Part shown: in pieces, positions 30,092 to 31,418 of the stretch
Layout of the letters: each line of letters starts with the position of its first letter
How positions within the stretch are numbered: position 1 is the first letter of the stretch
NCBI GenBank assembly: GCA_021323595.1
Contig: JAJPKR010000014.1
Coordinates: 1-64,000 of the forward strand
Origin: Terriglobia bacterium
Lineage (GTDB): Bacteria > Acidobacteriota > Terriglobia > Terriglobales > SCQP01
Direction: 5' to 3'
Length of the DNA stretch: 64,000 bases
The notes under the pieces: model-generated
Told to the model about the DNA's origin: nothing
Databases searched by the model: none
Seen by the model: the letters and a program-made list of their open reading frames with translations, nothing else
Program-made: the position numbers and the translations under genes

Positions 30092-30766
30092 TTACGTTTT
30101 GGCGACGGTCTCCAGTTCCTTTTCCGCCAGGAACCAGTCGGTCAGCTTGACCGAGCGGTCCGCGGCGCGCTTTTCGGCGTCGGCCTGCGTCTGCGGCGGC
30201 GGCAGCACCAGCGAGCCGCCTTTCTTCCAATCCGCCGGCGTCGAGAAGCCGAAGGTGTCGGTGGTTTGCAGCGCTTCGAAAACGCGCAAGATTTCATCGA
30301 CATTGCGGCCCGTGGACTGCGGGTAGTAAAGGATCGCCCGCACCACTTGCTTGGGATCGATGAAAAACACCGCCCGCACCGGCGCCGTGTCGCTGGCGCC
30401 CGGATGGATCATGCCGTAGGCCTGGGCCACGCGGGTATCGAGGTCGGCGACGACGGGAAACGTCACCTTGACGCCGGCCTTTTCCTCGAGCGTGCGCACC
30501 CAGGCGATGTGCGAGTACACGCTGTCCACGCTGACCCCGATCGGCTGCACGTTCAGCTTCTGGAAGTCGGGGGCGCGGCGCGCGAATTGGATGAACTCGG
30601 TGCTGCACACCGGCGTGAAATCAGCGGGATGGGAGAACAGCATCACCCACTTGCCCTTGTAATCGCTCAGGCGGATCACGCCGTGCGTGGACTTGGCCTC
30701 GAAGTCGGGAGCCGGCTCATTGATGCGCGGCAGGCGCGTGGGAGCGTTGCCATTGTCAAGACTCAT
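30092..30766 (-). CDS. 1-Cys peroxiredoxin (Prx6 subfamily)
   Basis: This 224-residue protein starts at the ATG at 30766 with GGAG eight bases upstream. The active site HPADFTPVCSTEF places the peroxidatic cysteine at residue 54, the only cysteine in the protein, so there is no resolving cysteine. VRAVFFIDPKQVVRAILYYPQS and STPADWKKGGSLVLPPP are typical of the Prx6 branch with its C-terminal arm. It reduces peroxides and needs an external thiol to recycle. The gene is preceded by an apparent cysteine-codon attenuator (30799-30925) with its own promoter, so it is probably induced when charged Cys-tRNA is scarce. Confidence 0.95.
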   Translation of the reverse strand: MSLDNGNAPTRLPRINEPAPDFEAKSTHGVIRLSDYKGKWVMLFSHPADFTPVCSTEFIQFARRAPDFQKLNVQPIGVSVDSVYSHIAWVRTLEEKAGVKVTFPVVADLDTRVAQAYGMIHPGASDTAPVRAVFFIDPKQVVRAILYYPQSTGRNVDEILRVFEALQTTDTFGFSTPADWKKGGSLVLPPPQTQADAEKRAADRSVKLTDWFLAEKELETVAKT

Positions 30767-30798
30767 GCGATTGTCTCCATTTTCGTGAACGTTAAATG

Positions 30799-30829
30799 AA
30801 AAAGCCCACCAGCGAATCGCGGGTGGGCT
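30799..30829 (-). terminator. Intrinsic terminator acting as attenuator before the peroxiredoxin gene
   Basis: On the minus strand AGCCCACC (30829-30822) and GGTGGGCT (30810-30803) form an 8-bp stem with an 11-base loop, followed by a run of five T ending at 30799. It lies between the leader peptide and the peroxiredoxin start, so it would end transcription before the gene. Its 5' arm can instead pair with GGTGTGGCT (30870-30862), giving an antiterminator. Confidence 0.85.
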
Positions 30830-30859
30830 GAAAGAACTCTTGCGCGGAAATCGGCGCGT

Positions 30860-30925
30860 CTAGCCACACCTGCGGCGTTGCATGGCAGGACAACAACACA
30901 TGCGCCGCAGATGAGCCAAACTCAT
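30860..30925 (-). CDS. Leader peptide with three consecutive cysteines (attenuator uORF)
   Basis: This 21-codon ORF encodes MSLAHLRRMCCCPAMQRRRCG. The three Cys codons (30898-30890, all TGT) lie in the loop of a perfect 8-bp hairpin, CTGCGGCG (30910-30903) with CGCCGCAG (30877-30870). The stop codon lies in the second arm. The predicted transcription start is the A of its ATG, so translation would be leaderless, which explains the absence of a spaced Shine-Dalgarno site. Ribosome stalling at Cys would cover the first arm and let the second region pair with the terminator arm. The product is a regulatory peptide, probably not functional after synthesis. Confidence 0.8.
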   Translation of the reverse strand: MSLAHLRRMCCCPAMQRRRCG

Positions 30926-30931
30926 ATCCTC

Positions 30932-30960
30932 ATGATAGGCGAGCCCGGCGCGACGGTCAA
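30932..30960 (-). promoter_or_regulatory. Sigma-70 promoter for the leader peptide and peroxiredoxin
   Basis: On the minus strand TTGACC (30960-30955) and TATCAT (30937-30932) are separated by exactly 17 bases. Six bases (GAGGAT) separate the -10 box from the ATG at 30925, so the seventh base downstream, the expected +1, is the first base of the leader peptide start codon. The match to consensus is five of six at -35 and four of six at -10. Confidence 0.75.
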
Positions 30961-31040: not shown

Positions 31041-31418
31041 TCAGCTTTCGAAAAGCACATGCGCCAGCGCCAGCGCGCGCGTATGCGTCAGCGAGAGCTG
31101 GATGTGGCGCACGCCCAAACGGTCCGCATGGGCGCGCGCCGCGCCGCTCAGGGCCAGCGTCGGCTGGCCGCTGGGCAGGCGGGCGACCTCCAGGTCGCGC
31201 CAGCGTACGCCCTGGCTCCAGCCGGTGCCGAGCTCCTTCATCGCCGCCTCTTTGGCGGCAAAGCGGGCGGCATAGCGTTCGGCCCAATTCGCGGCTGCAT
31301 GGCAGTAAGCGCGCTCGGCAGGGGTGAAGATGCGGCCCAGAAACGCCTCCCCGAAGCGCTCGATCGAGGCCGCGATCCGGGCGACTTCCGCGATATCCGT
31401 GCCGATTGCAACGACCAT
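31041..31418 (-). CDS. acpS: Holo-ACP synthase
   Basis: This 125-residue protein starts at the ATG at 31418 (MVVAIGTDIAEVARI). The GTDI motif with the magnesium-binding Asp, FTPAERAYC, and RFAAKEAAMKELGTG with the second acidic residue are diagnostic of AcpS. SLTHTRALALAHV is the C-terminal beta strand region. It transfers phosphopantetheine from CoA to ACP. It is divergent from pgeF, with 36 bases between the start codons. CoaE, which makes CoA, is encoded at 56281. Confidence 0.96.
   Translation of the reverse strand: MVVAIGTDIAEVARIAASIERFGEAFLGRIFTPAERAYCHAAANWAERYAARFAAKEAAMKELGTGWSQGVRWRDLEVARLPSGQPTLALSGAARAHADRLGVRHIQLSLTHTRALALAHVLFES

Follow-up and report, generated by a model that had tools for sequence, protein, structure and literature searches.

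Leaderless short ORFs with contiguous Cys codons (polycysteine ORFs) have been described in mycobacteria (Canestrari et al. 2020, as covered in PMC9031893, PMC9094748, and PMC13236596). There the targets are cysteine and sulfur genes, and control is described as acting on downstream translation (PMC9031893); an earlier prediction of such ORFs saw no conserved terminator (PMC1262725). In Rhodobacterales, the uORFC-8-2 motif lies before cysS and has been read as a transcription attenuator (PMC8632094), and the same source describes PBC-28-3, a structured 5' element that precedes AhpC peroxiredoxin genes. Finally, CruR is a copper-sensing uORF of Bordetella (PMC9426467).

The locus considered here lies in the window, by which we mean the whole 64,000-nucleotide stretch of Terriglobia DNA that was analyzed, and whose closest named relatives, with 84% protein identity, are MAGs of Acidobacteriota. 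This locus resembles the polycysteine ORFs in its predicted leaderless start, in its contiguous Cys codons before a gene, and in the proposed signal, namely cysteine-dependent ribosome speed. However, the window type has a conserved intrinsic terminator and an antiterminator, and its targets in Acidobacteriota are peroxiredoxin and tRNA-Cys. With uORFC-8-2 it shares a Cys-codon uORF, a hairpin holding the Cys codons, and a terminal hairpin with a U-run, whereas uORFC-8-2 belongs to Alphaproteobacteria, has two tandem Cys codons, and targets cysteinyl-tRNA synthetase. The classical trp, his, and leu attenuators have the same plan (leader peptide with regulatory codons, 1:2 hairpin, 2:3 antiterminator, and 3:4 terminator), but window-type targets take no part in making the amino acid that is sensed, the start is predicted to be leaderless, and a tRNA gene lies downstream in relatives of the window. 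PBC-28-3 is likewise a structured element 5' of a peroxiredoxin gene, but it consists of a long stem with a pyrimidine-rich loop by the start codon, and no leader peptide, Cys codons, or terminator are reported for it. CruR is similar in being a Cys-containing upstream ORF that sets termination before a stress-related operon; it differs in being a 145-residue exported protein with a fixed CXXC and a RAPP arrest motif, in its Rho-dependent termination, and in its copper signal.

Neither Cys-codon system is matched in its target. The mycobacterial ORFs precede a cysteine or sulfur gene, whereas the window gene is of the Prx6 type and a cysK-like gene follows such a leader only in genus g87 of the family; uORFC-8-2 lies upstream of cysS, but no leader plus terminator was found at 29 cysS loci of the window's relatives. 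Since the locus would work like both systems yet fails the target criterion of each, we class it as a separate variant of ribosome-mediated attenuator. Specifically, we consider it very probable that the locus is a ribosome-mediated transcription attenuator that reads the supply of Cys-tRNA(Cys) and controls a Prx6-type peroxiredoxin, a reading reached without expression, 5'-end, or ribosome data. No precedent was found in the literature searched for attenuated tRNA genes or for peroxiredoxin/tRNA-Cys units, and the peroxiredoxin and tRNA-Cys targets, as well as this phylum, appear new for Cys-codon attenuators.

Components and predicted switching of the window locus

All parts of the attenuator lie on the minus strand between 30960 and 30799, where the earlier note had placed them, correctly to the base. 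Together with the gene, they are as follows.

30955..30960, minus strand: -35 element TTGACC (consensus scan)
30932..30937, minus strand: -10 element TATCAT, 6 nt before the leader ATG
30860..30925, minus strand: leader ORF MSLAHLRRMCCCPAMQRRRCG, 21 codons, ATG at 30925, stop TAG 30862-30860
30899..30921, minus strand: region 1, 5' arm of the anti-antiterminator hairpin (RNA fold), core CTGCGGCG at 30910-30903
30890..30898, minus strand: regulatory codons TGT TGT TGT, three tandem Cys (sequence, and clustered Cys in related leaders)
30858..30885, minus strand: region 2, 3' arm of the anti-antiterminator hairpin (RNA fold), containing the antiterminator strand
30862..30870, minus strand: antiterminator strand GGTGTGGCT, ending at the leader stop codon and pairing with the terminator 5' arm
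30799..30829, minus strand: intrinsic terminator AGCCCACC-11-GGTGGGCT plus T-run (sequence; similar hairpin in most related loci), with the 5' arm at 30829-30822, the 3' arm at 30810-30803, and the T-run at 30803-30799
30775..30778, minus strand: GGAG ribosome-binding site of the peroxiredoxin gene (sequence)
30092..30766, minus strand: 1-Cys peroxiredoxin (Prx6 type), 224 aa (Pfam AhpC-TSA 1.9e-37, 1-cysPrx_C 2.4e-7)

The promoter TTGACC-17-TATCAT is present as noted earlier: its two elements, 17 nt apart, together match the consensus at 10/12 positions, and the consensus scan of 2.5 kb finds nothing else that resembles a sigma-70 promoter, where shuffled sequence would give 0.2 matches. The 21-codon ORF with Cys-Cys-Cys, also claimed in the earlier note, can be read from the ATG at 30925, and we predict it to be leaderless, with +1 at or adjoining 30925; no 5' end has been mapped. 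The proposed target was a peroxiredoxin with a single cysteine, and the gene indeed has one Cys codon in 224 aa, within FTPVCSTE. With an AhpC/TSA fold, the 1-cysPrx_C domain, and this single Cys, the predicted protein meets the criteria for a 1-Cys peroxiredoxin of the Prx6 type, its activity being inferred. Because an acpS-like ORF lies upstream of the attenuator (same strand, ending at 31041) and a convergent glycogen-debranching gene lies downstream, prx is a single-gene unit in the window. A search of the window leader against Rfam gave no match to a described RNA family.

Two of the pairings proposed in the earlier note needed correction. The hairpin between regions 1 and 2, described as 8 bp between CTGCGGCG and CGCCGCAG (30877-30870, minus strand), is present in the RNA fold but is really ~22 bp long (~30921-30899 with 30885-30858), so that the whole antiterminator strand is hidden. 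The pairing of 30870-30862 with 30829-30822 also exists, but it carries a one-base bulge and is not uninterrupted. The terminator, with its 8-bp stem and five T, is evident in the sequence as noted. An automated terminator scan did not list it; the loop limit of the scan is 8 nt and the window loop is longer, and the scan's list is therefore no evidence against this terminator. Compared with shuffles, the window leader folds to -62.3 kcal/mol versus -43.9 +/- 4.1 (z -4.4), and pairing is better both between regions 1 and 2 (p=0.002) and between the antiterminator and the terminator 5' arm (p=0.010).

In the mechanism that we propose, transcription would start on the leader AUG, and a 70S ribosome would begin at the leaderless 5' end. 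When charged Cys-tRNA is plentiful, the ribosome would reach the UAG and cover the antiterminator strand, and the terminator would form. When charged Cys-tRNA is scarce, the ribosome would wait at the Cys run and disrupt hairpin 1:2; the freed GGUGUGGCU would then capture the terminator 5' arm before the 3' arm is made, and RNA polymerase would read into prx. In the absence of a ribosome, hairpin 1:2 would form and transcription would end. Inferences in this scheme are the site of the 5' end, ribosome stalling, which way the response runs, and the nature of the signal, which could be starvation for cysteine or its oxidative loss.

Folding with the ribosome placed reproduces the predicted freeing of region 2 by a stalled ribosome. 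In window RNA that does not yet include the terminator 3' arm, antiterminator pairing to the 5' arm rises from 0.05 without a ribosome to 0.99 with a ribosome stalled at Cys. Since the leader detector (described below) took the nearest start codon and lost region 1 in some leaders, 25 loci were refolded with their true starts; with the ribosome at Cys, 12 of these shift toward antitermination by >0.2 and one shifts the opposite way. For the full-length window RNA at equilibrium, the terminator forms in every ribosome state (0.98), and antitermination must therefore be kinetic. In classical attenuators, timing decides the outcome.

Conservation of the leader, terminator, and pairings

The peroxiredoxin is found in 10/14 genomes of the window's family (the window's own counted), and in all 10 it lies behind a Cys-rich leader and a terminator hairpin, in this order. 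These leaders include MVARRMCCCCVPSRSRCA, MSTLIRLLCCCCCCCSPSRRCD, MLAMRLCACCCRWMR, MTRVTRLDCCCSHQHSG, MHSRANVSQATGCCCCRLVR, and MKFLPMCLCCCRQRR; they hold 2-7 clustered Cys, and the cysteines are the only feature common to the peptides. A -10-like box ends 6-7 nt before the leader start in every one of the 10, again with no 5' end mapped, and this is the spacing predicted to put +1 on the start codon. Several family members have TTGACG or TTGACA at the position matching the window -35; L002-L004 are without a good -35, and L011 is without a T-run. A CCCACC...GGTGGG-type hairpin with a T-run lies at the corresponding place in most related loci. Outside the family, the L013 leader is also predicted to be leaderless, with a GTG start, and other loci have 5' leaders of 10 to ~100 nt. 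Since leaderless and long-5'-leader loci coexist, leaderlessness is a property of a branch rather than a part of the mechanism.

Both alternative pairings exceed chance across loci. In 24 loci, the antiterminator/terminator-arm pairing beats dinucleotide-shuffled region 2 (Fisher p 2e-11) and the region 1:2 pairing beats shuffles (Fisher p 8e-10); these values are uncorrected for the relatedness of the loci and hence overstated. In a swap test on 79 leaders, in which each antiterminator was also matched with the terminator arms from every other leader, the own partner was better by 1.85 kcal/mol, and for region 1:2 it was better by 3.86 kcal/mol (0 of 5000 permutations in either case). Co-varying flanks are seen by eye in the window (AGCCCACC with GGTG(T)GGCT), in L002 (CAGGCCCACC with GGTGCGCCTG), and in L008 (GAACCC with GGGTTC). 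By the shuffle measure, three family loci (L005, L007, and L009) have no antiterminator pairing above chance. The antiterminator is mutually exclusive with the terminator and with the leader hairpin, weakly so in these three. Its start lies a median of 7 nt downstream of the last Cys codon, and its end coincides with the stop codon (median offset 0), a placement at which a terminating ribosome would cover it.

The earlier note would have been refuted by a lack of conservation of the Cys codons or of the alternative pairings in related genomes. When this was checked, the Cys codons upstream of peroxiredoxin genes were found to stay in frame, whereas the remainder of the peptide is not conserved, and the pairings were kept with co-varying partners. 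The computable conditions thus failed to refute it, and the leaderless spacing recurs throughout the family. On sequence evidence, the parts of the attenuator, their conservation, their geometry, and the alternative pairings are established, as is the attenuator being real and under selection. It has a putative leader in which regulatory codons for a single amino acid form a run, its translation being inferred, and a predicted intrinsic terminator between the leader ORF and the gene.

Separately, long 5' leaders (5' of the leader ORF) were seen to carry a conserved three-way junction of ~50 nt, ACCGCA ... CGCGGTA with two hairpins (L139, L140, L145, L016, L141, L213, L220, L226, L232, L237, L238, and L205), with both-side changes in 6/16 pairs. 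Rfam gave no match for the long 5' leader domains (class B) of relatives.

Linkage to tRNA genes and the choice of target

In many Terriglobales, a tRNA-Cys(GCA) gene lies downstream of the peroxiredoxin on the same strand. When one tRNA-Cys(GCA) type was searched for in 120 genomes of Terriglobales, an intact gene was found at 63 loci. At 50 of these, the peroxiredoxin is just upstream; the Cys leader is present in 47/47 such loci with enough sequence (terminator detected in 45), and in two of the remaining three (L139 and L140) it was found on longer sequence. At another 7 loci, the attenuator is directly ahead with no protein gene between, as in L202 and L204, where a promoter, a leader (MTVLSSIRQMGSVCCCCCAGEGVEN and MTILHSIRQVPSGCCCCCAGEDIEI), and a terminator are followed by tRNA-Cys. 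The other 6 loci have neither, three of them in one genome with three copies. A second tRNA-Cys type matched in at least 6 genomes (G240, G243, G271, G231, G135, and G217), and the attenuated tRNA is therefore not the only one there. By gene order, the putative attenuator also precedes tRNA-Cys or tRNA-Sec in many relatives, and sometimes tRNA-Cys alone, a wider unit absent from the earlier note.

These data raise the possibility that the selected target is the tRNA-Cys gene itself, the attenuator serving homeostasis of tRNA-Cys supply, with the peroxiredoxin a passenger and, in the window, a relic. In its favor, 57/63 loci of this tRNA-Cys type lie behind a peroxiredoxin or directly behind the attenuator, including the 7 without a peroxiredoxin between. 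However, no tRNA-Cys follows the peroxiredoxin in the window's family, yet 10/10 peroxiredoxins keep the attenuator. Moreover, the window genome's tRNA-Cys is elsewhere, in a tRNA-Gly/tRNA-Cys pair without a leader, and a relic would not have stayed intact down to 75-84% protein identity. We therefore judge this explanation unlikely.

Control of the peroxiredoxin remains our preferred reading for the window, and in Terriglobales the circuit may in addition control its cognate tRNA gene. We lean, with some reserve, toward the view that in this order the attenuator governs tRNA-Cys, alone or behind the peroxiredoxin, such that a shortage of Cys-tRNA would turn on both tRNA-Cys and a peroxide-reducing enzyme, the window branch having the peroxiredoxin alone. 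If so, a tRNA gene would be under feedback attenuation by its own codon, and the cell would treat the loss of charged Cys-tRNA as an oxidative signal. As the controlled gene of the relatives is tRNA-Cys, tRNA supply may be regulated by attenuation. In addition, a conserved Cys attenuator before a detoxifying enzyme that makes no cysteine implies that waiting at Cys codons reads the thiol or redox state; oxidative stress as the physiological cue is an inference. The linked-tRNA group includes the cultured genera Edaphobacter and Granulicella, which makes direct testing possible.

Several further arrangements were observed around these tRNA genes. tRNA-Cys(GCA) lies directly behind a leader and terminator in L224, L231, L234, L249, L253, L265, L267, L202, L204, and L153. 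The two tRNA-Cys types are often a few kb apart, and only the ACCAGTATTC type was behind the attenuator where examined. tRNA-Sec follows an attenuated peroxiredoxin on the same strand in L083, L191, L192, L013, and L018, and in L018 the order is tRNA-Cys, then tRNA-Sec. Tandem peroxiredoxins of two subgroups, ~40% and 60% identical to the window's, occur in L139, L140, L141, and L024, ordered Prx-Prx-tRNA-Cys or Prx-tRNA-Cys-Prx behind one attenuator. Finally, 3' fragments of the attenuated-type tRNA-Cys, 45-52 nt long, lie 2-20 kb from the intact gene in G095, G066, G234, G091, and G179 and resemble the leavings of elements that integrate into tRNA genes.

Probable codon sensing and specificity of the arrangement

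Cys clusters stay in frame through interruptions (CACCC, CTCRCC, and CMCRGCCRC), and the leaders use both Cys codons (TGC 241, TGT 206). In the family leaders, 24/37 Cys codons are TGT, and the neighboring genes that were read use TGC only. Since both codons are used and the frame is kept, it is the codon that is selected and not one DNA word. The clustered cysteines could instead act in the nascent peptide, binding metal or being oxidized, with release or arrest of the peptide setting termination; the target is a redox enzyme, and CruR illustrates the principle with copper (PMC9426467). However, the number (2 to 8) and spacing of Cys vary freely with no other residue conserved, and the antiterminator nucleotides encode, and so account for, the recurrent C-terminal ends -CG* and -RV-. 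CruR, by contrast, relies on Rho together with a fixed CXXC and the arrest motif RAPP. The variable spacing and antiterminator-encoded ends favor a putative codon-sensing over a peptide-sensing mode, and we give the latter little weight.

It could also be argued that the leader controls translation of prx and that the hairpin is a minor terminator. Such control has been proposed for the mycobacterial polycysteine ORFs, for which no conserved terminators are described and which affect translation of the gene downstream (PMC1262725, PMC9031893). This is very hard to reconcile with the conserved, correctly positioned hairpin and T-run; moreover, several loci have a tRNA gene downstream, and a tRNA is beyond translational control. 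Ribosome-mediated attenuation thus remains the preferred explanation; from its design, the attenuator likely responds to Cys-tRNA charging, with read-through and cysteine dependence inferred.

The specificity of the arrangement was assessed with a detector requiring >=3 Cys in 6 codons, a short ORF, and a T-run hairpin <=100 nt from the stop. In 1.89 Mb of Terriglobia loci, both strands, 87 distinct matches were obtained; the loci were collected around peroxiredoxin and tRNA-Cys genes, and the totals are not a genome census. All but six precede a peroxiredoxin, a tRNA-Cys gene, or both (81/87: 41 before a peroxiredoxin then tRNA-Cys, 30 before a peroxiredoxin, and 10 before tRNA-Cys without a peroxiredoxin between), and none of the six scattered matches has a CCCACC-type hairpin. 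Short Cys-rich ORFs do arise by chance in GC-rich DNA, but chance co-occurrence of a short ORF in the promoter region with an ordinary terminator, an origin already refuted by the conservation of leader and terminator, has next to no credibility when the background from these six, ~3 matches per Mb of strand, is set against a match upstream of every family peroxiredoxin.

Within the window's genome, TGTTGTTGY occurs at 37 sites, and among the 30 examined only the window site has a short ORF and then a T-run terminator hairpin. Other attenuators in this genome were sought only through these sites and at the cysS and cysK loci. A DNA pattern of Cys codons plus CCCACC/GGTGGG, used to find other genera, missed the window copy, which has a longer spacer.

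Among the relatives examined, an attenuator precedes cysK in one genus only (g87, in the window's family). Given this restriction and the absence of an attenuator at the 29 cysS loci, the circuit is not a general cysteine response. In G203 and G205, family genomes without the peroxiredoxin, a cysK-like gene lies behind a leaderless-spaced leader (MFASLERRCPSCRC and MTASIEPRRCPSCRC, respectively) with a hairpin and T-run. The putative cysK-like leader fits a cysteine signal, on the basis of two genomes of one genus. The leader in L347 and L349, at ~1241-1290 in gene orientation, ends in RRCPSCRC* and stands with a hairpin and T-run just ahead of the cysK-like gene.
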